Source of the DNA: Reyranella sp.
GTDB taxonomy: Bacteria > Pseudomonadota > Alphaproteobacteria > Reyranellales > Reyranellaceae
Assembly: GCA_004296815.1 (NCBI GenBank)
Contig: SCVT01000718.1
Location: 1-15,064, forward strand
Direction of reading: 5' to 3'
DNA: 15,064 nucleotides
In this document: positions 6,111-15,064 of the stretch, one piece after another
Layout of the letters: every line of letters starts with the position of its first letter
How positions within the stretch are numbered: the stretch's first letter is position 1
Program-made: the position numbers and the translations under genes
The notes under the pieces: model-generated
Told to the model about the DNA's origin: nothing
The model's input: only the letters and a program-made list of their open reading frames with translations
The model's database searches: none

Positions 6111-7238
6111 ATGCATGTGGGAATGGCTGCGGTCTTCCAGAACACCGGCCGGGCGCTCAGCGACCGCCAGATCTACCTGAACGAGACGGCGCTCGCCGAC
6201 ATGGCCGAGCCGCTGGGCTTCGAATCGATCTGGTCGGTCGAGCACCATTTCACCGACTACACGATGTGCCCCGACGTCGTGCAGTTCCTCTCCTACATGG
6301 CGGGCCGCACCAAGACCGTGCGGCTGGGCTCGATGGTGGTGGTGCTGCCGTGGCACGACCCGATGCGGGTCGCCGAGCAGATCTCCATGCTCGACCATCT
6401 CTCGGGCGGCCGCATGATCCTCGGTCTCGGCCGCGGCGCGGGCAAGGTCGAGTTCGACGGCTTCCGCCTCGACATGGGCGACAGCCGCGAGCTGTTCGTG
6501 GAGTACGGCGAGGCGCTGCTGAAGGGCCTCGAGACCGGCGTGATGGAATACAGCGGCAAGCACTACAGGCAGCCGCGCGCCGAGATCCGCCCCGCCCCGT
6601 TCAAGTCGTTCCGCGGCCGCACCTATGCCGCGGCCGTCAGCCCCGAGAGCGCGCGCATCATGGCGCGGCTGGGCGTCGGGCTCCTCATCATCCCGCAGAA
6701 GCCGTGGCGCGAGGTCGAGAAGGAACTGACCGAGTACAACCAGCTCTATCGCGAGATCAACGGCACCGACGCGCCGCAGCCGATCTCGGCCGGCTGGACC
6801 TTCGTCGACGAGAGCGCCGAGCGGGCGCGCGAGATGGCGATGCAGTATATCGGCGGCTACTACCGCACGGTGCTCGACCACTACCAGTTCGCCGGCGCGC
6901 ACATGAAGAACCAGAAGGGCTACGAGTACTACGCCAAGATGAACGAGAAGCTCGCGGTCTACGGCGACCAGAAGGCGATCGAGTTCTTCGCCGACCTGCA
7001 GGTCTACGGCACGCCCGAGCAGGTCTACGGCAAGATCATGAAGATCCACGAGCAGACGAAGAACTCGGGCTATGTCGGCGTCTTCTCCTATGCCGGCATG
7101 CCACACGAGGAAGCGGCGCGGAACATGCGCATGTTCGCGAGCACCGTGATGCCGGAGCTGAAGAAGTTCGACGCGGGTGCGGCGATCGACCGGTCGCAGC
7201 CCCTGCCCGACCTGCGCTACGCCGCCGCCGCGGAGTAG
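6111..7238 (+). CDS. Luciferase-like (LLM class) flavin-dependent monooxygenase
   Basis: 375 aa starting at 6111, where an AGGAGA site and the first-strand motif MHVGMAAVF agree. The LLM fold is indicated by LGFESIWSVEHHF (residues about 35-47), the strand RLGSMVVVLPWHDP, and the family signature EQISMLDHLSGGRMILGLGRG near 88-108. Such enzymes use reduced FMN and oxygen to oxidise small molecules such as alkanes, aromatics, sulfonates or long-chain aldehydes. The substrate is unknown; a separate flavin reductase would be needed and none is seen. The gene is divergent from LolA and is followed 37 bp later by the membrane/spermidine-synthase fusion. No defect is visible. Confidence 0.9.
   Translation: MHVGMAAVFQNTGRALSDRQIYLNETALADMAEPLGFESIWSVEHHFTDYTMCPDVVQFLSYMAGRTKTVRLGSMVVVLPWHDPMRVAEQISMLDHLSGGRMILGLGRGAGKVEFDGFRLDMGDSRELFVEYGEALLKGLETGVMEYSGKHYRQPRAEIRPAPFKSFRGRTYAAAVSPESARIMARLGVGLLIIPQKPWREVEKELTEYNQLYREINGTDAPQPISAGWTFVDESAERAREMAMQYIGGYYRTVLDHYQFAGAHMKNQKGYEYYAKMNEKLAVYGDQKAIEFFADLQVYGTPEQVYGKIMKIHEQTKNSGYVGVFSYAGMPHEEAARNMRMFASTVMPELKKFDAGAAIDRSQPLPDLRYAAAAE
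6123..6138. repeat. 16-bp direct repeat, copy 2
   Basis: Identical to 6031-6046. This copy lies inside the monooxygenase gene and encodes its residues 5-9 (MAAVF), the first beta strand. Confidence 0.9.
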
Positions 7239-7275: not shown

Positions 7276-9255
7276 ATGGCGCTTCCAGGCCTCGCCGTCC
7301 TTCTCTCCGCCTTCCTGCTGTTCCTGGTCCAGCCGCTGATCGGGCGGCTGGTGCTGCCGTGGTTCGGCGGCAGCGCCGCGGTGTGGACGGCGTGCCTCGT
7401 CTTCTTCCAGACCGGACTCGTGCTGGGCTACGGCTACGCCGCGCTCTCGATCCGCCTGCTCTCACCCGCAAACCAGCGCCGCCTGCATGTGACGCTGCTG
7501 GGGCTGAGCCTGCTCGCCTTGCCGCTGCTGCCCGATGCGGCGTGGAAGCCGGCCGACGGCGACGACGCGCTGCTGCGTCTCGCGGGACTGCTGTTTGCGA
7601 CGGCCGGTGCGCCCTACCTGCTGCTGGCCGCGACCGGGCCGCTCGTGCAGTCGTGGCTCGTGGCGACGGGGCGCACGCCGTGGCGGCTGTTCGCCGTCTC
7701 CAACGCGGCATCGATCGCTGCGCTCGCCGCCTACCCGGTCGCGATCGAGCCGTGGTTCACGCTGCACCTGCAGGCGATGCTGTGGAGCGCGTTCTATCTT
7801 CTCGCCGCGCTGCTGGTGGCGCTGCTGGCGTGGCGGACGCGCGACGCCGTTCCCCTGCCCCAGGCCGCGGCCGCGCCGCCGACGGCAGCACAGGTCGCGA
7901 CCTGGATGCTGCTGGCCGCAATTCCCACGGCGCTTCTCGTGGCGATCACCGAGTATCTGACGCGCGACGTGGCGCCGGTGCCGCTGCTGTGGATCCCGCC
8001 GCTGGCGCTCTACCTGCTGAGCTTCGTCGTGTGGTTCGACGGCCGCCTGCCCTTCCACCGTCTGCCGTGGATGGTGCTGGCCGCCGCCGCGGTGCTGGCG
8101 ATGAGCCGCGCCATGACCCTGACCCGCTTCACCTTCGAGCCGCTGGTCCTGGTGCCGCTGTTCGCCGGCGGCCTGTTCGTGGTCTGCCTCTACTGCCATG
8201 GCGAGTTGGCGCGCCGCCGCCCCGACCCGCGCCGCCTCGGCGCCTTCTACTTCAGCCTGGCGCTGGGCGGTGCGATCGGCGGGCTCGCGGTCGCCATCGC
8301 GGCACCGCTGGTCCTGTCGCGGCATTTCGACGTCGCGATCCTGCTGGCGGCGACGGCGCTGCCGCTGGCGATCGGCGCGATGTCGCTCGAGCGGCCGGTG
8401 GCCAAGGGCATCGGCGTCGCCTGCGCGCTCGCGGCGCTGGCCGGCGGCACCTACGGCGTGACCCGCATTTACGTGCTCGACGGCGACCGGCTGGTCTCGG
8501 TGCAGCGCAACTTCTACGGCACGCTCAAGGTGGAGGAGGAAGGGATCGGCACGCCCGACCATCGCCGCGAGCTGATGCACGGCGCCGTCCTGCACGGCGC
8601 GCAGTACGTGACGCCCGAGCGGCGGCGCGAGACGACGGAGTACTACCGCACCGAATCAGCGATCGGCCGCGCCGTCGCCACCCTGCCCGACCGGCCGCGC
8701 CGCATCGCCGTGGTCGGGCTGGGGCCGGGCACCGTCGCCGCCTATGGCCGCGCGGGCGACCTCATCGTGTTCTACGAGATCGACCCCGCCATCATCGCCG
8801 TGGCGAAGCGCGACTTCAGCTTCCTCGCCGACTCGGCCGCCGAGATCGAGATCGTGCCGGGCGACGCGCGCCTCAGCCTGGAGCGCGAGGCGTCGCGCCG
8901 CTACGACCTGCTGGTGCTCGACGCCTTCGCCGGCAACGCGCCGCCGCTCCATCTCCTGACTGTCGAGGCGTTCGGCCTCTACGTCCGCCACATGGTGGCC
9001 GAGGGCGTGATCGCCGTGCAGGTCTCCAGCAAGTTCCTCGAGCTCGATGCCCTGGTGGCCGCCGCGGCGCAGGCACAGGGCTGGATCGGCGAACTGGCGA
9101 CCGACGGCATCATCAGCACCTGGATCGTCGCGGCCCGCGAGCGCGAGCGCCTCGCCCGGTCGCCGCTCGTCGAGGTGCTGACCCCGGTCGACACCGCGGG
9201 CGTGCGCCCGTGGAGCGACGACTTCATCGACCTGATGCGCGCGCTGCCGCGCTAG
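7276..9255 (+). CDS. Integral membrane protein fused to a spermidine-synthase-like domain
   Basis: 659 aa from the ATG at 7276. The first roughly 400 residues contain about ten or more hydrophobic helices, beginning LPGLAVLLSAFLLFLVQPLI and including FGGSAAVWTACLVFFQTGL, typical of the fused permease-like/spermidine synthase proteins. After a linker with RNFYGTLKVEEE, a Rossmann methyltransferase-like domain starts near residue 478 (IAVVGLGPGTVAAYG), with an acidic FYEIDP loop, PGDARLSLE near 527 and LDAFAGNAPPLHLLTVEAF near 547. These correspond to spermidine synthase nucleotide-binding and active-site regions. Whether this type makes polyamines is not established. It ends tail to tail with the nucleotidyltransferase gene, the stops sharing CTAG. 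Confidence 0.88.
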   Translation: MALPGLAVLLSAFLLFLVQPLIGRLVLPWFGGSAAVWTACLVFFQTGLVLGYGYAALSIRLLSPANQRRLHVTLLGLSLLALPLLPDAAWKPADGDDALLRLAGLLFATAGAPYLLLAATGPLVQSWLVATGRTPWRLFAVSNAASIAALAAYPVAIEPWFTLHLQAMLWSAFYLLAALLVALLAWRTRDAVPLPQAAAAPPTAAQVATWMLLAAIPTALLVAITEYLTRDVAPVPLLWIPPLALYLLSFVVWFDGRLPFHRLPWMVLAAAAVLAMSRAMTLTRFTFEPLVLVPLFAGGLFVVCLYCHGELARRRPDPRRLGAFYFSLALGGAIGGLAVAIAAPLVLSRHFDVAILLAATALPLAIGAMSLERPVAKGIGVACALAALAGGTYGVTRIYVLDGDRLVSVQRNFYGTLKVEEEGIGTPDHRRELMHGAVLHGAQYVTPERRRETTEYYRTESAIGRAVATLPDRPRRIAVVGLGPGTVAAYGRAGDLIVFYEIDPAIIAVAKRDFSFLADSAAEIEIVPGDARLSLEREASRRYDLLVLDAFAGNAPPLHLLTVEAFGLYVRHMVAEGVIAVQVSSKFLELDALVAAAAQAQGWIGELATDGIISTWIVAARERERLARSPLVEVLTPVDTAGVRPWSDDFIDLMRALPR

Positions 9256-10460
9256 CGCCCGATGCCGAGCGCCTTGAGGCCGAGGCGGAAGGGCCGCGTC
9301 ACGCGGTAGAGCGGCCAGAGGACCGGCGGCAACGGCATCGCATTGTGGTCGCTCACGGTCGGCGCCAGGCCGATCGCCACGCTGGCCACCGCGCGCCGCC
9401 ACCGGCTGTCGCACAGGTCGAGGTCGGCGAGGTTTTGCCGCCTGTCCTGGCCTTGCGGTTCGCGAAGATCGGCGATGAGCACCGATGCCAGTGCATCGAC
9501 ACGGGAGCTCGCCTTCGCCAGCGGGCCGAGCGCCTCCGGCACGGCGACGCCCAGCAGCCGCTCGGCCATGACGCAGGCCAGCAACACGCTGTCGCCGCAG
9601 TCCTGCGCCCGCGCACGACGATGGACCCCCAACCAGTCGAGGTCGCGCTGCCGGTCGACCAGCAGGGCGAAGTCGCAGACCCAGCCCAGGCTGCGCCAGC
9701 CTTCCTTGGTGCCGTGGCCCGCGAGCAGCAGCGCGAGCGCCGCACCGCCGATCGTGGCGACGCGGCGGGGACCGATCGCCACCTGCTCGACGCTCGACCA
9801 GATCTCGTCGACCGACAGGGGGAACGGCACGTGCCGGGCGGTGAAGGCCCAATGCAGGTCGACCGTGGCCTGGTCGGCATGGACCAGCGCGTACTGGCGC
9901 TGGTGCGCGAGGAACGCCTTGCGGAAGCGCCGGTCGCCCTGGGTGCTGCGGTAGCCGAAGCCCTCGAGCACGTCTTCGGCCGTATCGACGTCGGACGGCC
10001 GCACGATGAGATCGATGTCGTTGTACTCGCGCGCCGTGAGGTCGCGATGGAGAGCCGCCGCGAGCGCCGCCCCCTTGAACACGGCCACCGGCAGGCCGCG
10101 CGCCGCGAGAGCTGCGGTCACGCGACCGAGCTGCTCGGCGGCGGCCAGGCAGAAGGCGCCGTGCACGCGCATGAAGTTCTCGAGATCGTTGCGCAGGGCG
10201 GGAGGAACCCGGTCCCAGCCCAGGGCCGATAGGCTGCGCACCAGCTGCGGCCGGACCGAATGGTCCGACGCCACGCTCAGAAGCTGGTCGACATCGAGAC
10301 CGGCGCGGAGGGCGCGGTCGAGTTCAGTGATGTCGGGCTGCGGCCTCGCCGCAAGGCACAAGGCGTCGAACGCGGAGAGAGCAGCCGATCCCGCTCTCGA
10401 CACTACCGCGCCATGAGTCGTCTCAGCGGGTCCGGCGCGGCTGCTTGCCCTTGCCGCCAT
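9252..10460 (-). CDS. Nucleotidyltransferase-family protein of the lasso cluster
   Basis: 402 aa if started at the ATG at 10460; a GTG at 10403 (383 aa) would avoid overlap with the precursor gene. No clear ribosome binding site separates the two. Residues about 118-150 hold LAARGLPVAVFKGAALAAAL then EYNDIDLIV, the K-G and D-x-D (Asp148, Asp150) elements of the NTP_transf_5 type polymerase-beta-like fold, with VDLHW near 200 and HGTKEGWRSLGW near 249 also family-typical. Related proteins occur in some lasso peptide clusters, notably the paeninodin type beside an HPr-kinase-like enzyme. Their role is not settled, and no kinase is seen here. Placement directly after and overlapping the precursor suggests it acts on the peptide, by inference. 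Confidence 0.85.
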   Translation of the reverse strand: MAARASSRAGPAETTHGAVVSRAGSAALSAFDALCLAARPQPDITELDRALRAGLDVDQLLSVASDHSVRPQLVRSLSALGWDRVPPALRNDLENFMRVHGAFCLAAAEQLGRVTAALAARGLPVAVFKGAALAAALHRDLTAREYNDIDLIVRPSDVDTAEDVLEGFGYRSTQGDRRFRKAFLAHQRQYALVHADQATVDLHWAFTARHVPFPLSVDEIWSSVEQVAIGPRRVATIGGAALALLLAGHGTKEGWRSLGWVCDFALLVDRQRDLDWLGVHRRARAQDCGDSVLLACVMAERLLGVAVPEALGPLAKASSRVDALASVLIADLREPQGQDRRQNLADLDLCDSRWRRAVASVAIGLAPTVSDHNAMPLPPVLWPLYRVTRPFRLGLKALGIGR

Positions 10461-10587
10461 CGGAGTTGCCCGACGAGCCGACGGACATCGTGATGTCGCG
10501 CAGGGTGCCCCAGGTCACGAGCGCCGGCGGCGCGTAGGGCTTCTTGACCGGCGACATCTCACGGCTGTCGAGGGGCTGAGCATCCAT
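10423..10587 (-). CDS. Lasso peptide precursor (A protein)
   Basis: 54 aa. The start at 10587 (MDAQPLDSRE) is preceded by AAGAGG about ten bases upstream; ATGs at 10614, 10608 and 10557 are possible alternatives. The leader has Tyr18, Pro21, Leu23, Gly27 and Thr33, an exact YxxPxLxxxGxxxxxT lasso-leader match recognised by the B1 protein. The family rule (Thr at the penultimate leader position) puts cleavage after Met34. The 20-residue core then begins SVGSSGNSD and ends QPRRTR. Its only acidic residue is Asp9, in the allowed 7-9 window, predicting a Ser1-Asp9 macrolactam and an 11-residue tail with five Lys/Arg and no aromatic residue. Product and activity are unknown. Neighbours B1, C and B2 are the maturation enzymes. 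Confidence 0.88.
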   Translation of the reverse strand: MDAQPLDSREMSPVKKPYAPPALVTWGTLRDITMSVGSSGNSDGGKGKQPRRTR

Positions 10588-10660
10588 ATCCGAGGTGCCT
10601 CTTTGCATTCTCACTACGATTACTTACCACACAGGCCGCATGTTGCCACGGGCCGGCAGC

Positions 10661-10688
10661 ATTATTATTTGCACTCAAGGTGCGACAA
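10661..10688 (-). promoter_or_regulatory. Candidate internal promoter for the precursor gene
   Basis: On the minus strand TTGTCG (10688-10683) and AATAAT (10666-10661) are separated by 16 bases and resemble sigma-70 -35 and -10 boxes, matching 4/6 and 5/6. They lie in an unusually AT-rich patch within the 101-bp gap between B1 and the precursor. Extra transcription of the precursor relative to its enzymes would be expected. This is a pattern match only. Confidence 0.4.
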
Positions 10689-10973
10689 TTAGCCGTGGAT
10701 CGAGGTTTCGATCAGGCCGGCATCCAGCATGCCGCCCAGGAACTTCAGCACATCCTGGCGGCAGACGTCGGGGGTGACGTCGAAGTTGGCCGTCACATCA
10801 TCGCAGATCTCGGCGACGGAATGCGGCGTCTCGAGGAAGTCCCAGATATGGGCGCCGACGCCCTGCAGCCCGAAGTACAGCGCCTTCTCGACGTTCAGCA
10901 CGGCGACTTCCTCGTTGAGGACGCACGACACCTGGCTGGACGATTTGCGAACGACGGTCGACGGCTCGAGCAT
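10689..10973 (-). CDS. Lasso B1 protein: PqqD-like RiPP recognition element
   Basis: 94 aa, the size of stand-alone PqqD-like proteins. The pattern VSCVLNEEVAVLNVEKALYF, then GLQGVGAHIWDFLETPHSV, then DVLKFLGGMLDAGLI is the PqqD/RRE winged-helix arrangement: an N-terminal beta hairpin followed by helices. It should bind the precursor leader around Tyr18-Gly27 and deliver it to the B2 protease. In lasso systems it is called B1 (or B, when fused to the protease). The ATG at 10973 lies 20 bp after the cyclase stop, so it is co-transcribed; the precursor follows after 101 bp. Two Cys residues at 17 and 57 have no assigned role. PqqD of PQQ synthesis is excluded by the absence of other pqq genes. 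Confidence 0.88.
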   Translation of the reverse strand: MLEPSTVVRKSSSQVSCVLNEEVAVLNVEKALYFGLQGVGAHIWDFLETPHSVAEICDDVTANFDVTPDVCRQDVLKFLGGMLDAGLIETSIHG

Positions 10974-10993
10974 GGCGGCATTTTCTAACGGCG

Positions 10994-12676
10994 TCAGGGA
11001 TGGCGCGCCAGCCAGTAATCCAGCGCGTGGACGGCGAGCAGGCCGGGCAACAGCCGGCCGGCCGAGGCCGCCTCCGGCAGCTTGGCGGCATCGACGAATT
11101 CGGCGAGCCGCGGGTCGCGCGCCAGCGGCGGCAGGCCGTGGGTCGCGACGGGCGAGGCGAAGGACGAGGCCGCGAGCGGCGCCTTCTTCCGCTCGAGGAT
11201 CTCGCGCGGCAGCCGCCCGCGCATCGCCTCGCGCAGCAGGCGCTTGCGGCGGGCCCACGGCACCGGCGGCACGGCGAGCAGGAACCCGAGCACGCGCAGG
11301 TCGAGGTAGGGATGGCGCCACAGCAGCGGGGCCCGCGCCTCGTCGTCGTCGAAGCCTGCGAAGAGTGCGGGCCAGATCGCCGAGGTGAACGACGCCATGG
11401 CGCGTGGATGCCAGGGATGCGCAGGCTCCTCGTCGGGCCGAGACGGCGCGACGCCGCGCACGAGCCACGGCGGCTCGGGATCGTCGGGCATGTCCGGCAC
11501 GCCGCGCCCGGTATAGCGGCGCAGCGTCTCGCCCCAATCGTTCTTCGAGGCAACGTAGCCGAACGCGGCGCCGGCCAGCCGCCGCCAATCGCCGCGACGG
11601 AGCAACCAGGAGAGATAGGCGTCGCGCTCGAAGACCAGCGCGTTGTCCGGCCCCTCGCCGAAGAACCAGACCGGCGCGAGGGCGGCCTGCGCGCGGCTCA
11701 TGCGCCGCTCGGGCTCGGCCGCAAGGGCACCGACATGGGGCTCGGCACTGTCGATCCTCCGCGTCCGCCACTCGGGATCGTAGGCCGCGTCATCGAGCGC
11801 GGTGTGCACGATCTCGATGCCGAGATGGCGCGCCGCGAGCGTGCTGTAGCGCTTCTCCTCGTCCGCCATCAGCCGCTCGAAATGCGTGCATTCGGCCACG
11901 ACGCGCGCGGGATCGCCGGTCGCGGCCACGGTGCAGGCGGCGAGCGTCGTCGAATCGAGGCCGCCGCTCATCGAGATGCCGACACGGCCCGGCGGCAGGC
12001 GGTCGCGGATGGCCGATGTCATGAGATCGAGGAAGCGTTCGCCATAGGCGGCGGCGTTCGGCAGGTGCAGCGGCTCGCCGAGTTCGAGCCGCCAGTAGCG
12101 CCGCGATGTCATGTGCACGGCATCCGCCTCGAGCAGGTGCGCCGGGGCCAGCCGCTTCGCGCCCTGCCAGACCGTGCTCTCGAAATCGCGGGCATGGCCC
12201 AGCGTCAGGAAGTCGGCGATCCAGCGCGGATCGAGCGCCCGGTCGCCCTGCCGTTGAGCGGCGATCCAGTCGAGGGAATCGGAGACCAGCAGCGTGCCGT
12301 CGGCTTCGGCATGAAACAGCGCGCGCACGCCCAAGCGATCGCGCACCGCCAGCAGGCGGCGCCGCTTCCCGTCCCACAGCACGAAGGCGAAGTCGCCGGC
12401 GAGCCGGTCGATGAAACCGTCGCCGACTTTCTCGTAGGCCTGAAGGCAGGACACGCCGTCGGATGACGATGCATCGCGCGCGTCGAGGCGCAGACGACCG
12501 GCGATCCAGAAAGGGCCCAGGGACTCGACACCGCGCCAGTCGCCCGCGACGGCATCGGTCGATCGCACGAACGCCAGCTCGGGCGCGTCCGCGGGACCGT
12601 CGACGATGAGTCCCGCCCCGCCGAGCGCGCGCCGGTCGACCGGCCGGCCGTTCCTGTTGAAGACCGCCGCGAACAA
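10994..12676 (-). CDS. Lasso cyclase (C protein), asparagine synthetase-like
   Basis: 560 aa. The N-terminal glutaminase-like half lacks the catalytic Cys of true asparagine synthetases (it begins FAAVFNRNG), so ammonia production from glutamine is not expected. The synthetase half has the ATP pyrophosphatase loop SGGLDS at 237-242, DEEKRYSTLA near 272-281, GEGPDNAL at 340-347 and HPYLDLR at 455-461, all usual for lasso cyclases. It would adenylate the Asp9 side chain of the core and close the amide with the freed N-terminus. The start is a TTG at 12676, two bases after the B2 stop, and is the only start in frame near the B2 gene, so C is probably coupled to B2. It precedes B1 by 20 bp. Confidence 0.9.
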   Translation of the reverse strand: MFAAVFNRNGRPVDRRALGGAGLIVDGPADAPELAFVRSTDAVAGDWRGVESLGPFWIAGRLRLDARDASSSDGVSCLQAYEKVGDGFIDRLAGDFAFVLWDGKRRRLLAVRDRLGVRALFHAEADGTLLVSDSLDWIAAQRQGDRALDPRWIADFLTLGHARDFESTVWQGAKRLAPAHLLEADAVHMTSRRYWRLELGEPLHLPNAAAYGERFLDLMTSAIRDRLPPGRVGISMSGGLDSTTLAACTVAATGDPARVVAECTHFERLMADEEKRYSTLAARHLGIEIVHTALDDAAYDPEWRTRRIDSAEPHVGALAAEPERRMSRAQAALAPVWFFGEGPDNALVFERDAYLSWLLRRGDWRRLAGAAFGYVASKNDWGETLRRYTGRGVPDMPDDPEPPWLVRGVAPSRPDEEPAHPWHPRAMASFTSAIWPALFAGFDDDEARAPLLWRHPYLDLRVLGFLLAVPPVPWARRKRLLREAMRGRLPREILERKKAPLAASSFASPVATHGLPPLARDPRLAEFVDAAKLPEAASAGRLLPGLLAVHALDYWLARHP

Positions 12677-12678
12677 GC

Positions 12679-13092
12679 TCAGCCCGGACCGGCGCGCCAG
12701 GCCACGAGCCGCGTGTAGTCCTCGTGCTCCTCCTCGCCGACCAGGATCTCTCCTTCATGTGTCAGCCAGGCATGGGCCGCGAAATCGCCGCCGGTGCGGG
12801 CGACGCCGATATGCAGCTCCGAATCGTGGCCTTCGGCCGAGAGCAGGTGCTGCAGTGCCAGCGCCGCAGCGAGGCAGCTCGTGCCCGGCAGGCGGCGCCG
12901 GGCGATGCGCACGGCCCAGGCCAGGCGATCGGCCGCCGTCCCGCCGGTGCCGCGTCGGCCTGCCCAGGCGCGCAGCCGCTCGACGGACACGAGGCGCAGG
13001 CCGAGGCGGACGGCCGCGACTGTTGCCATGGCGCGCAGCAACAGCCGCCGGTCGGTGCCGGGCATGGCGATGAAGGTCGCGACAGGGTTCAT
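12679..13092 (-). CDS. Lasso B2 protein: transglutaminase-like leader peptidase
   Basis: 137 aa, the size of stand-alone B2 proteases. The cysteine-protease elements are visible: PGTSCLAAALALQHLL with nucleophile Cys73, and AAHAWL with His107. The third triad residue is not clear; Glu120 lies near its expected position. An N-terminal amphipathic region (RRLLLRAMATVAAVRLGLRL) is usual in this family. It should cut the precursor after Met34 when the leader is held by B1. The ATG at 13092 has AGAGGG just upstream. It is the first gene of the minus-strand run B2-C-B1-A-nucleotidyltransferase and is divergent from the PhyH-like gene, 43 bp away. Confidence 0.88.
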   Translation of the reverse strand: MNPVATFIAMPGTDRRLLLRAMATVAAVRLGLRLVSVERLRAWAGRRGTGGTAADRLAWAVRIARRRLPGTSCLAAALALQHLLSAEGHDSELHIGVARTGGDFAAHAWLTHEGEILVGEEEHEDYTRLVAWRAGPG

Positions 13093-13135: not shown

Positions 13136-13861
13136 ATGAGAATCGACTGCGGCGAGGTCGCCGACGAGCGGATACGTGCGGCCTACGGGCATCTGATGAA
13201 GGACGGCTACGTGGTCCTGGACCGTGTGATCGCGCCAGCCGCGCTCGGGCCACTGCAGGCTGCCCTGGAAGGCATGCCACCGGGAACGTCCGTGGCGAGC
13301 CGTCGGCATGTCCTGCCGCTCGACCTTGCCGGCGCCGCCGCCGAGCCGTCGATCTACGCCAACCCGGCGATCGTCGCGCTGGCGCGCGAGGCGCTGGACA
13401 CGAACGCCGTCCTGCTCGGCCTCTCCGCCGACACGGCGCTGCCCGGTGCCGGACCGCAGCATGTCGATCGCGACGGCCGGCCGCTGTTCGACGCCGCGGT
13501 CTCGGCGCTGCTGCCGGCGCACGCGGTCGTCGCGGTGCTGCCGCTCGACGGCGCGTCGGAGGTCGCGGTATGGCCGGGCAGCCATCGCTGGAAGACGCGC
13601 GACGAGAACGCGGCCCCCGAGCTGGCCGAGCTGGCGCCGGGCGCCTGCCTCGTGCGCGACGCCAGGCTGCTCAGCAGCGACGCCGGCAATCGCTCCGGCG
13701 CGCGCCGCACCGTACTGCGCGCGGTCTATGCGCGGCGGTGGTTCCGCGACGCGCTGCAGGGGCTGCAGCGCCCGACATCACGGCCGGCGCTCCGAGAAGG
13801 TTTCCTGGCGGGCGTCGCACCGAAAGACCTCGGCCTGTTCGCCCACCTGAAGGCGCCATGA
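13136..13861 (+). CDS. Phytanoyl-CoA dioxygenase (PhyH)-like protein with altered iron site
   Basis: 241 aa from the ATG at 13136; an in-frame ATG at 13091 would overlap the B2 start. The fold is recognisable: an N-terminal DGYVVLDRVI, then GPQHVDRDGRPLF (108-118), EVAVWPGSHRWK (142-152) and NRSGARRTVLRAVYARRW near 185-202. PhyH enzymes hydroxylate with Fe(II), oxygen and 2-oxoglutarate. The iron ligands look damaged. Related proteins usually have QxxHxD, but here it is Q-H-V-D-R-D, leaving HxD two residues early (His109, Asp111). The distal His expected five residues before Asn185 is Ser180. It may be inactive or have a shifted site. A weak GCGACA-N15-TATCAT promoter (13079-13105) precedes it. 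It overlaps the next gene by ATGA. Confidence 0.75.
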   Translation: MRIDCGEVADERIRAAYGHLMKDGYVVLDRVIAPAALGPLQAALEGMPPGTSVASRRHVLPLDLAGAAAEPSIYANPAIVALAREALDTNAVLLGLSADTALPGAGPQHVDRDGRPLFDAAVSALLPAHAVVAVLPLDGASEVAVWPGSHRWKTRDENAAPELAELAPGACLVRDARLLSSDAGNRSGARRTVLRAVYARRWFRDALQGLQRPTSRPALREGFLAGVAPKDLGLFAHLKAP

Positions 13862-14322
13862 AGAAGTTCATCATCCTCGACGACGTGTTCGACGAAGCGA
13901 CGGTGGCGGCGATCGCCGCCTTCGACTACGGCGAGGGCGAGCAGTGGTACGAGCCGGGCAGCAATCCGGTGCACGAGAAGATCCTCGACCTCTGCGCCCA
14001 GCATTTCGACCTGAGCGCGATCGCGGGCTACGAGATGTGGCGCAACGACACCAACCCCGGCTGGCACGTCGACAAGGACGAGCTGATGTTCGAGGCGCAG
14101 AAGGAATACGCCTTTCCCCAGTGCAGCGCGGTCTACTACGCGCATGTCGGCCAGATGGCGGGCGGCGAGTTCTTCACCGACGACCTGCGCTACTTCCCGC
14201 GCGCCAACCGGCTGGTGATGTTCTCGCCCGGCCTGTTCCACGGCGTCTCGGCCTATGCCGGCGAGCGCTTCGCCGTCAGCATCAATCCTTGGAATCGTAG
14301 GGTCAGGTCACCGCGAACTTGA
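13858..14322 (+). CDS. 2OG-Fe(II) oxygenase, prolyl-hydroxylase-like fold
   Basis: 154 aa. It starts MKKFIILDDVFDEATVAAIA, the usual opening of small P4H-type oxygenases. The iron-binding triad is intact: GWHVD with His70 and Asp72, and GLFHGV with His128. Arg137 in GERFAVSINPW would bind the 2-oxoglutarate carboxylate. It would hydroxylate or otherwise oxidise a peptide or small molecule in the cytoplasm. Its ATG overlaps the PhyH-like stop (ATGA), so the two proteins are made together, possibly as partners. The 3' end overlaps the convergent third oxygenase by 20 bp. A role in modifying the lasso peptide (for example its Pro, Lys, Asn or Asp) is inferred from position only. Confidence 0.85.
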   Translation: MKKFIILDDVFDEATVAAIAAFDYGEGEQWYEPGSNPVHEKILDLCAQHFDLSAIAGYEMWRNDTNPGWHVDKDELMFEAQKEYAFPQCSAVYYAHVGQMAGGEFFTDDLRYFPRANRLVMFSPGLFHGVSAYAGERFAVSINPWNRRVRSPRT

Positions 14323-14860
14323 AGGCGACCGAGGTGCGCGCACCGAAGCTGGTGCGCGCCGGCACGCCGCCACGATGCAGGATCCCGCCCTCGAACACCG
14401 CGAGGCGGCCGGGCAGCGGCGCCACGGCGTGGCGTGGCTCGCCCGCCTGGTCGTAGAAGATCGTCTCGCCCTGCCAGTCCTTCTCCCAGTCGGGATTGGC
14501 GAAGTAGAGCGCGGTGACGCCGGGCACGATGTCGTGATGCGGGTTCTGGTGGTCGCCGAACAGGTGGGCGTTGGCGTGCACGCGCTCGAGCTTCAGGGTC
14601 GTTCCGGCGAACAGCTCGGCGGTCTTGGCGACGACGCTGTCGTGCCAGCTCCGGAGCAGCGGGTTGGCGGCGAAGAACTCCGGTGCGAACTCCGACTTCC
14701 AGTGACGGATGCGCTCGGTCGCCTCGGTATCGTAGTCCGACAGGCTGAACGACTGGCGCGACAGGATCTCGTGCAGCACGCGCACGAAGTCGGGCTTGAA
14801 GAGACCATCGACCACGAACAGGCGCTGCTCGCCCAGCGGCCGGGACTCGACGCTGCTCAT
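14303..14860 (-). CDS. 2OG-Fe(II) oxygenase, second type
   Basis: 185 aa. The core has NPHHDIVPGVTALYFANPDW with His108 and Asp110, then GETIFYDQAGEPRHAVAPLP, GRLAVFEGGILHRGG with His162, and Arg175 in GARTSVAFKF: the complete HxD...H...R set of 2OG-Fe(II) oxygenases (2OG-FeII_Oxy_3-like). The substrate is unknown. It is not a close copy of the 13858 oxygenase. Its ATG overlaps the stop of the upstream gene running off the right edge (ATGA), so it belongs to another minus-strand operon. Its 3' end overlaps the plus-strand oxygenase by 20 bp. It may serve the lasso locus or the unknown upstream gene. Confidence 0.85.
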   Translation of the reverse strand: MSSVESRPLGEQRLFVVDGLFKPDFVRVLHEILSRQSFSLSDYDTEATERIRHWKSEFAPEFFAANPLLRSWHDSVVAKTAELFAGTTLKLERVHANAHLFGDHQNPHHDIVPGVTALYFANPDWEKDWQGETIFYDQAGEPRHAVAPLPGRLAVFEGGILHRGGVPARTSFGARTSVAFKFAVT

Positions 14861-15064
14861 GCCAGCACCTTGGCGATCTCGTCGTCGACGCGGCCCAGCA
14901 GCTCGTGGCGTCGCGGATAGGCAAGGGCGTGGACGGGCACGGTCTCGGCCACCTGCCCTGCGAACCGCATCTGGCGGGCGAGGCGATCGGGCGCGTGGTA
15001 GCGGATGTTCATCGCCGAGGAGAGGAGCGCGCGCGCGAGCGCCGTGCCGGCAAGACGCGTCGAG
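14857..15064 (-). CDS. C-terminal part of an unrecognised protein
   Basis: The visible 68 codons (5' end beyond the right edge) read through to a TGA at 14857-14859. The segment includes ALARALLSSAMNIRYHAPDR, then RQMRFAGQVAETVPVHALAY and a basic-acidic end RVDDEIAKVLA. It is probably helical and cytoplasmic, with no membrane segment or known motif seen. The stop overlaps the start of the 2OG-Fe(II) oxygenase, so the two are likely functionally linked. No family was recognised. Confidence 0.7.
   Translation of the reverse strand, partial: STRLAGTALARALLSSAMNIRYHAPDRLARQMRFAGQVAETVPVHALAYPRRHELLGRVDDEIAKVLA

Follow-up and report, generated by a model that had tools for sequence, protein, structure and literature searches.

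Lasso peptide genes at the contig end

The window, that is, the whole stretch of 15,064 nucleotides analysed here (Reyranella sp., assembly GCA_004296815.1, contig SCVT01000718.1), carries a gene cluster for a lasso peptide, a class of ribosomally synthesized and post-translationally modified peptide (RiPP). All lasso genes lie on the minus strand, with B1, C and B2 contiguous. Reading downward from 15063, the minus-strand order is the end of an HPr-kinase-like gene (K), a 2-oxoglutarate (2OG) oxygenase, B2, C, B1, the precursor (A) and a PF14907 nucleotidyltransferase (N), and two plus-strand oxygenase-like genes are interposed between the 2OG oxygenase gene and B2. The system reaches the contig end, and the range 9252..13092, which an earlier note had described as a lasso peptide cluster with an unusual predicted product, also encloses the nucleotidyltransferase at 9252-10460.

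9252..10460, minus: N, nucleotidyltransferase (PF14907, 170.7 bits); the true start may be downstream of 10460
10423..10587, minus: precursor A, 54 residues (translation; homologues, several of 54 residues with the same start Met; motif statistics)
10587-10486, minus: precursor leader, 34 residues, with YAPPALVTWGTLRDITM at -17 to -1
10485-10426, minus: precursor core, SVGSSGNSDGGKGKQPRRTR, delimited by the T(-2) rule; stop codon at 10425-10423
10689..10973, minus: B1, leader-recognition protein of the RiPP recognition element (RRE)/PqqD type (PF05402, 63.4 bits against a cut-off of 23.4)
10994..12676, minus: C, lasso cyclase, asparagine-synthetase-like (PF00733, Asn_synthase, 65.5 bits, over the cut-off; ATP motif SGGLDST intact)
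12679..13092, minus: B2, leader peptidase (Transglut_core3; lasso B2 model NF033537, 85.8 bits against a cut-off of 33)
13136..13861, plus: PhyH-like protein, divergent from B2 (similar to an L037 protein that matches PF05721)
13861..14322, plus: 2OG-Fe(II) oxygenase-like protein with HxD...H (PF13640, 23.4 bits, under the cut-off of 27)
14303..14860, minus: second 2OG-Fe(II) oxygenase, FlmC-like, adjoining K (PF13640, 29.2 bits, over the cut-off of 27; NF052475, 101 bits, under the cut-off of 240)
14857..15063, minus: K, HPr-kinase-like, C-terminal 68 residues, cut by the contig end (translation; tblastn match of a relative's K)

As regards membership as a lasso locus, a B2, a PqqD-type B1, an asparagine-synthetase-type C and the leader/Asp pattern were all found. 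Re-translation bore out the coordinates, residues and counts that the earlier note had given for the precursor. Counted from ATG the precursor has 54 residues, the same open reading frame remaining open up to a GTG at 10614. The YxxPxLxxxGxxxxxT leader claimed for it is present as Y18, P21, L23, G27 and T33, followed by M34 and the first core residue, S35; domain profiles (PF05402, PF00733, NF033537) confirmed its place beside B1, B2 and C. The core comprises 20 residues with five Lys/Arg, no aromatic residue and a single Asp/Glu at residue 9, directly followed by Gly-Gly, and these boundaries and the sole acidic residue agree with the T(-2) rule, Thr at leader position -2, and with the homologues. 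Beyond that note, the analysis adds the PF14907 nucleotidyltransferase, the kinase fragment, the oxygenase-like genes and, in relatives, dispersed precursors. The letters of the core had no match in the literature searched, and the one paper found to contain both ‘Reyranella’ and ‘lasso peptide’ described no Reyranella lasso peptide in the passages available.

The precursor family of the genus

A protein search with the window precursor gave 20 homologues, one of which (P0017) is named Reyranella sp., as are some homologues of the nucleotidyltransferase; further nucleotidyltransferase homologues are named Rhodospirillales, bacterium or Enhydrobacter aerosaccus. A PDB sequence search with one relative's precursor gave no match. 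Among 65 genomes of the genus, 43 had a strong or contig-cut match to the window cyclase (41 above 300 bits, a threshold of our own choosing, plus fragments in G017 and G055) and 22 had none; at E ≤ 0.001 there were cyclase matches in 59 of 65 genomes, the additional ones scoring weakly and belonging to other proteins that resemble asparagine synthetase. A profile built from 21 precursors matched 42 of the 43 cyclase-bearing and 2 of the 22 cyclase-less genomes. Since the precursor has 20 homologues and its profile tracks the cyclase across the genus, the lasso locus is not due to chance. It is a real lasso peptide locus of a Reyranella species, ordinary in kind.

Core statistics were compiled over 62 distinct cores, from the 20 homologues and 44 precursors (the window included) in 37 of 58 fetched loci (L031-L088). 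The 44 were selected by a leader-like pattern plus Asp followed by Gly or Trp, so that the selection itself accounts for part of the frequency of Asp-Gly; no selection was made on position 1 or on the tail. In the alignment of the window with the 20 homologues the invariant columns were G3, G6 and D9 in the ring and G10, G11, K12, T19 and R20 in the tail. Leader position -2 was Thr for 61 of 62 cores and Ala in L061. The latter (6236-6412) is a cluster precursor with a degenerate leader, lacking also the Gly at -8, and is perhaps decaying; its genome, G003, has other precursors.

From these statistics, the features that the earlier note had taken as unusual follow a family rule. Core position 1 was Ala in 22, Thr in 17, Ser in 15, Lys in 3, Phe in 2, Asn in 2 and His in 1 of the cores and Gly in none, and Ser1 is known in the caulonodins IV, V and VII, streptomonomycin, lariocidin and moomysin (table in PMC12427821), so the claim that Ser1 is an oddity is not supported. 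The Asp lay at position 9 in 54 cores and at position 10 in 8. Ser1-Asp9 is the most likely ring of the window product but is not quite ‘effectively fixed’, as had been held, because the eight Asp10 cores obey the same T(-2) rule. These eight form a class with a TGRGG tail and Asp after T-x (e.g. TIWTSKGNRD), lying between B1 and the nucleotidyltransferase in L034, L035, L041, L045, L048, L051 and L085, and would either form a natural ten-residue ring or be cleaved one residue later; a ten-residue ring is mentioned, in the part of a review available, for an analogue made in vitro. Beside a sister-group cyclase, L120:6661 (minus strand) is a candidate precursor with the core SAPANGPTWD, its Asp also at 10. 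In four loci (L036:4572, L037:13113, L046:7769 and L054:12364) a second precursor copy lies about 4 kb from the cyclase, near a gene for a PF10119-type methyltransferase.

The Gly-Gly, the five Lys/Arg and the lack of an aromatic residue noted earlier are indeed present in the window core, but that they make the product unusual is not supported, basic tails being general in the 62 cores. A branched-cyclic peptide that never threads, or that unthreads for want of a bulky tail plug, would fit the absence of aromatics from the window core and from many related tails; Arg and Lys could however serve as plugs, some of the related cores have Trp, Tyr or Phe as their last residue, and B2 and C are of lasso type, and we regard an unthreaded product as unlikely.

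In its Ser1, Asp-Gly and Gly/Lys/Arg-rich tail the window core resembles lariocidin (SKKSKPGDGKFGRGVKRG) and triculamin, and this resemblance prompted us to consider kinship with them. The DGGKGK of the window fits the same pattern as DGKFGR in lariocidin and DGIRGK in triculamin (PMC12427821, PMC13192320), and the DGxxG[KR] pattern recurs in 20 of the 62 family cores. However, the window ring is of 9 residues and not 8, the leader of lariocidin precursors is short and lacks YxxPxLxxxG (six of six), and where the window has kinase, nucleotidyltransferase and oxygenase-like genes, the lariocidin cluster carries genes for an acetyltransferase, a peptidase and a transporter. A cyclase tree, built by a quick method from 56 sequences (the window and 22 selected loci of the genus, six lariocidin-type and 27 others), united all 23 genus rows in one group with a support of 100, its neighbours being two further alphaproteobacterial cyclases (99), and placed the lariocidin-type cyclases elsewhere, the tree tool warning of long branches among them. 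Kinship was rejected because the cyclases fall into separate groups, leader and ring size agreeing, and a ribosome-targeting lasso peptide of the lariocidin/triculamin type is very improbable here; the product may still act in a similar way.

The most constant feature of the tail is a Thr flanked by allowed, mostly basic residues, a pattern composed after the sequences had been inspected; all 62 cores have it, where 200 shuffles gave 18.7 on average and 29 at most. In 6 of the 62 cores, Thr19 is the only Ser/Thr beyond position 1.

Kinase, nucleotidyltransferase and oxygenase-like genes

Over the same genomes, the kinase was found in 39 of the 43 cyclase-bearing and 0 of the 22 cyclase-less ones (some copies are cut, and G000 was scored as kinase-less since its copy is cut), the nucleotidyltransferase in 42 of 43 and 3 of 22, the PhyH family in 33 of 43 (the G000 match being a divergent copy) and 1 of 22, and an ATP-binding cassette (ABC) transporter, at E ≤ 1e-120, in 23 of 43 and 3 of 22. 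The three cyclase-less genomes with the nucleotidyltransferase (G016, G020 and G050) are the same three that retain the transporter and, having kept both without a cyclase, look like decayed or fragmented islands. Fisher values overstate the independence of these counts, because ancestry is shared and the island can be lost as a whole.

The catalytic motifs are well kept. Of 42 aligned kinase copies, the 39 that cover the Walker A motif all have GxSGxGKS; the G and DxD motifs of the nucleotidyltransferase were present in 42 of 42 copies, and both the HxD and the distal His of the PhyH family in 29 of 30. Likewise, the 2OG protein at 13861..14322 had H69/D71 and H127 in 9 of 9 copies and that at 14303..14860 had H108/D110 and H162 in 8 of 8. 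The window's PhyH-like protein had no Pfam match. It was tried as a hydroxylase, and rejected: its HVD is not a true HxD, and the alignment puts Asp at the first metal-binding His and Ser at the distal one, in the window and in the sister copies L031, L033 and L038 (L033 having Asn in the motif neighbourhood of the distal site). It is probably not a working Fe(II) oxygenase, and may be a pseudo-enzyme that the clade of the window has retained next to B2. In sister genomes a standard PhyH copy lies beyond the kinase, i.e. off this contig.

The AlphaFold2 model of the nucleotidyltransferase had a predicted local distance difference test (pLDDT) score of 90.3, with residues 1-24 below 50. Its top solved structures by Foldseek were ANT(2'')-Ia (E 1.2e-4), MenT1 and, lower, FKRP (E 1.7e-3); as template modelling (TM) scores on the query were ≤ 0.33 for the listed rows, the match is limited to the nucleotidyltransferase domain. 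A PDB sequence search with the nucleotidyltransferase gave no match. ANT enzymes adenylylate hydroxyls, which fits the titles of the ANT entries, and the titles of the FKRP structures name CMP, CDP-ribitol and a sugar acceptor. Both likenesses would fit transfer onto Thr or phospho-Thr, neither specifying the group transferred.

Related gene sets have been described elsewhere. The bsf cluster of Bradymonas sediminis (A, B1, B2, C, D, K, N; PMC10368454) shares with the window the A, B1, B2, C and N genes, a YxxPxL leader at -17 to -12 and, with the putative kinase gene cut short in the window, K, and differs in Gly1, Asp8, Ile(-2), a kinase (BsfK) acting on the ring residue Ser3 and a transporter within the cluster, where the Reyranella system has Ser1 (often Ala or Thr in its kin), Asp9, Thr(-2), a conserved tail Thr and oxygenase-like genes. 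Pseudomycoidin and paeninodin share a non-Gly position 1 (Ala), Asp9 and, putatively, an HPr-type kinase, with an N gene in psm, whose product PsmN adds a hexose to phosphorylated Ser according to the part of the review available. In these peptides it is the C-terminal Ser that is phosphorylated and the printed tails are acid-rich, whereas the window has a basic tail with a conserved Thr next to the end. The N of the window belongs to PF14907, and its likeness to PsmN and BsfN is by gene description, not by family profile. The pseudomycoidin core had no match in plasmids.

It could be that K, N and the oxygenase-like genes are unrelated neighbours (e.g. for a surface polysaccharide), the lasso peptide being left unmodified. 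In a syntenic island joint gain and loss alone could produce the association, relatives of PF14907 are also found among glycosyltransferase genes, and two oxygenase-like genes run in the opposite orientation, one of them without metal ligands. Against this stand the confinement of K to cyclase-bearing genomes, the use of K and N as lasso tailoring genes elsewhere, in the descriptions available, and the tail Thr common to all 62 cores, and we consider unrelated neighbours a doubtful explanation. On the reading that K and N tailor the peptide, Thr19 is the likely modification site; we infer this from the cores: ring hydroxyls are dispensable, 11 of the 62 having none, and the tail Thr is not.

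Several neighbouring arrangements were also seen. On a Thalassobaculum plasmid (L138) a nucleotidyltransferase, an ABC transporter, a PqqD protein and a lasso B2 occur together, a relative of the window gene set. On a plasmid of Crinalium epipsammum (L139) two nucleotidyltransferase genes accompany an HPr kinase and glycosyltransferases, with no annotated lasso gene in the fetched stretch. In the window, an MFS/spermidine-synthase fusion (NF037959; 7177-9255, plus strand) adjoins the nucleotidyltransferase, a placement shared by few relatives only (L033, L038 and L071).

Dispersed precursors and the biosynthetic machinery

The precursor profile gave 93 matches in 44 of the 65 genomes, with more than one match in 24. 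Fifty of these precursors have a cyclase within 12 kb. Strict orphans, which are either 10 kb or more from each end of a cyclase-less contig or more than 12 kb from the cyclase on the same contig, number 18, in 11 genomes; the other 25 are undecided, lying on short contigs or at edges. G021, a genome in a single contig, has its sole strong cyclase match at 15.8 kb, with precursors at 7.0 kb, 2.69 Mb and 2.85 Mb. G021, G035 and G037 have no precursor between B1 and the nucleotidyltransferase, and two to four elsewhere in each genome. Of the 37 possible-orphan loci (L143-L179, 3.8-8 kb), only the cluster pieces L176, L177 and L179 gave a match to B1, B2, C, the nucleotidyltransferase or the kinase (tblastn, E ≤ 1e-6). 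A scan of ten proteins flanking three of the orphan loci showed transporters, a channel, AsnC regulators or no family, and nothing of lasso type.

Two orphans, L144:3392 (G035) and L149:3549 (G021), occupy the same AsnC/AzlC site in two species and differ in ring and tail letters. In L159, L160 and L173 a tandem array of three dispersed precursors is conserved across three species, with no enzyme genes in the fetched stretch. Two candidate upstream signals of the dispersed precursors were set aside: a TGGG-repeat motif occurred in 6 of 43, against means of 4.5 in base-shuffled sequence and 1.5 at random positions, and an 8-mer enrichment was confounded by orthologous sequence.

Such orphans could be unprocessed remnants of duplication, in keeping with the lack of enzyme genes near them and with the degenerate leader of the cluster copy L061. 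Their sequences argue otherwise. The Y..P.L...G.....T leader was present in 18 of 18 strict orphans. In the larger set from the orphan loci, which includes copies on edge contigs and two cluster-linked copies, T(-2) was found in 40 of 40 precursors (two dropped), and Asp9 and a Thr after it each in 36 of 36 distinct cores. The ratio of nonsynonymous to synonymous substitution rates (dN/dS), pooled over ten ortholog pairs of dispersed copies, was 0.17 (leader 0.23, ring 0.33, tail 0.06), showing purifying selection on these pairs, six of which share the locus L159 and most of which have one partner on a short or edge contig. Furthermore, there are the three genomes whose only precursors lie away from the cluster position. 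Remnants are, in our judgement, an improbable account. In all 25 dispersed copies that could be tested (14 genomes, with edge copies counted), the residue before the conserved leader Gly (Trp or not) is as in the cluster precursors, an agreement that common descent could explain.

The distribution of B2 bears on the same question. By tblastn B2 was found in 37 of 52 genus loci, with its aligned Cys and His (and Trp) in 37 of 37 copies, and the B2 profile adds a cut copy in L069. Six of the loci without it are short or cut (L083-L088), and eight span 12-18 kb (L072-L076, L079, L080 and L082). In G014, G028, G034 and G042 B2 is present at another locus of the same genome; in G005, G027 and G036 the sole B2 match is weak (34-36% identity) and lies on contigs without C (L064-L066). 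At the B2-less cyclase loci, B2 would be either too divergent or acting in trans.

Taken together, the remote precursors with intact leaders, the dN/dS of 0.17 and the eight longer cyclase loci without a nearby B2 suggest that the machinery of the genus works in trans on a library of dispersed precursors. In species that are sisters of the window's, the precursor between B1 and the nucleotidyltransferase seems to have been lost, those that are left being all remote, and the B2 of some cyclase loci may be borrowed. The prochlorosins, which are lanthipeptides, offer an analogy, one enzyme set there serving many precursors away from it; their chemistry is different, and dispersal here is deduced from sequence alone, in relatives of the window. 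Dispersed lasso precursors had no precedent in the titles and abstract openings of the literature searched, a scope mostly outside subscription papers.

Overall, we consider it likely that the window holds a lasso peptide locus whose B1/B2/C product is tailored by K and N, and whose machinery also serves remote precursors. The genes, the motifs conserved at the catalytic sites of B2, C, N and, in relatives, K, the co-occurrence, and the conservation and dispersal of the precursors support it. Several observations weigh against it. The lasso B1 model NF033536 (62.5 bits, cut-off 80) and the lasso cyclase model NF033535 (140.9 bits, cut-off 525) scored under their cut-offs, as did the nearest precursor model, NF033528 (lasso_cyano; 19.6 against a curated cut-off of 33 bits), whose weak match spans the leader and ring of the window precursor. 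Only the last 68 residues of K lie in the window, and its family rests on sub-cut-off profile matches of relatives, the reference K of one relative scoring 28.7 against a Pfam cut-off of 33.3. The PhyH-like protein of the window lacks metal ligands, and a search of the window genome at E ≤ 1e-120 did not find the ABC exporter that many relatives have. B2 was not found, by tblastn or profile, in 14 of the 51 other genus loci, each of these 14 having a C match. The window's own assembly (4.64 Mb, 770 contigs, 89.5% complete) yielded one precursor. Ser/Thr occurs within the ring (positions 2 to Asp) in 51 of the 62 cores, so the Thr19 site is not forced, and the action of BsfK on ring Ser3 speaks against assuming a tail site.

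The cleavage site, ring closure, threading, the site and chemistry of modification and trans processing are what we infer for the pathway. B1 would bind the YxxPxL leader, B2 would cleave after T-M and C would link Ser1 to Asp9, giving a 9-residue macrolactam with an 11-residue basic tail, a net charge of about +4 and a monoisotopic mass of 2012.03 Da when unmodified. The HPr-kinase-like K would phosphorylate a hydroxyl, most likely that of tail Thr19, to which N, the PF14907 enzyme, would attach a nucleotide or a sugar phosphate. The peptide may also be hydroxylated by one or both of the 2OG oxygenases. The same machinery probably serves precursor genes elsewhere in the genome, with products sharing the leader and the Thr-bearing basic tail and differing in the ring. 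The product is probably a secreted bioactive or signal peptide.

By a narrow balance, we favour the idea that Reyranella maintains a natural combinatorial lasso library, in which trans-acting machinery meets dispersed precursors that combine a common leader and a basic Thr tail, the handle for kinase and nucleotidyltransferase, with a diversifying ring. If true, it would be a test case for the purpose of a constant tail joined to a variable ring. Lasso mining restricted to the surroundings of B and C genes would miss dispersed precursors. The review, in the part available, leaves open which group PF14907 nucleotidyltransferases add to lasso peptides, and the tail Thr in every core makes this a clean substrate family for learning it. 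If one machinery handles all the precursors, the genus would hold a naturally promiscuous lasso system, of use in engineering.

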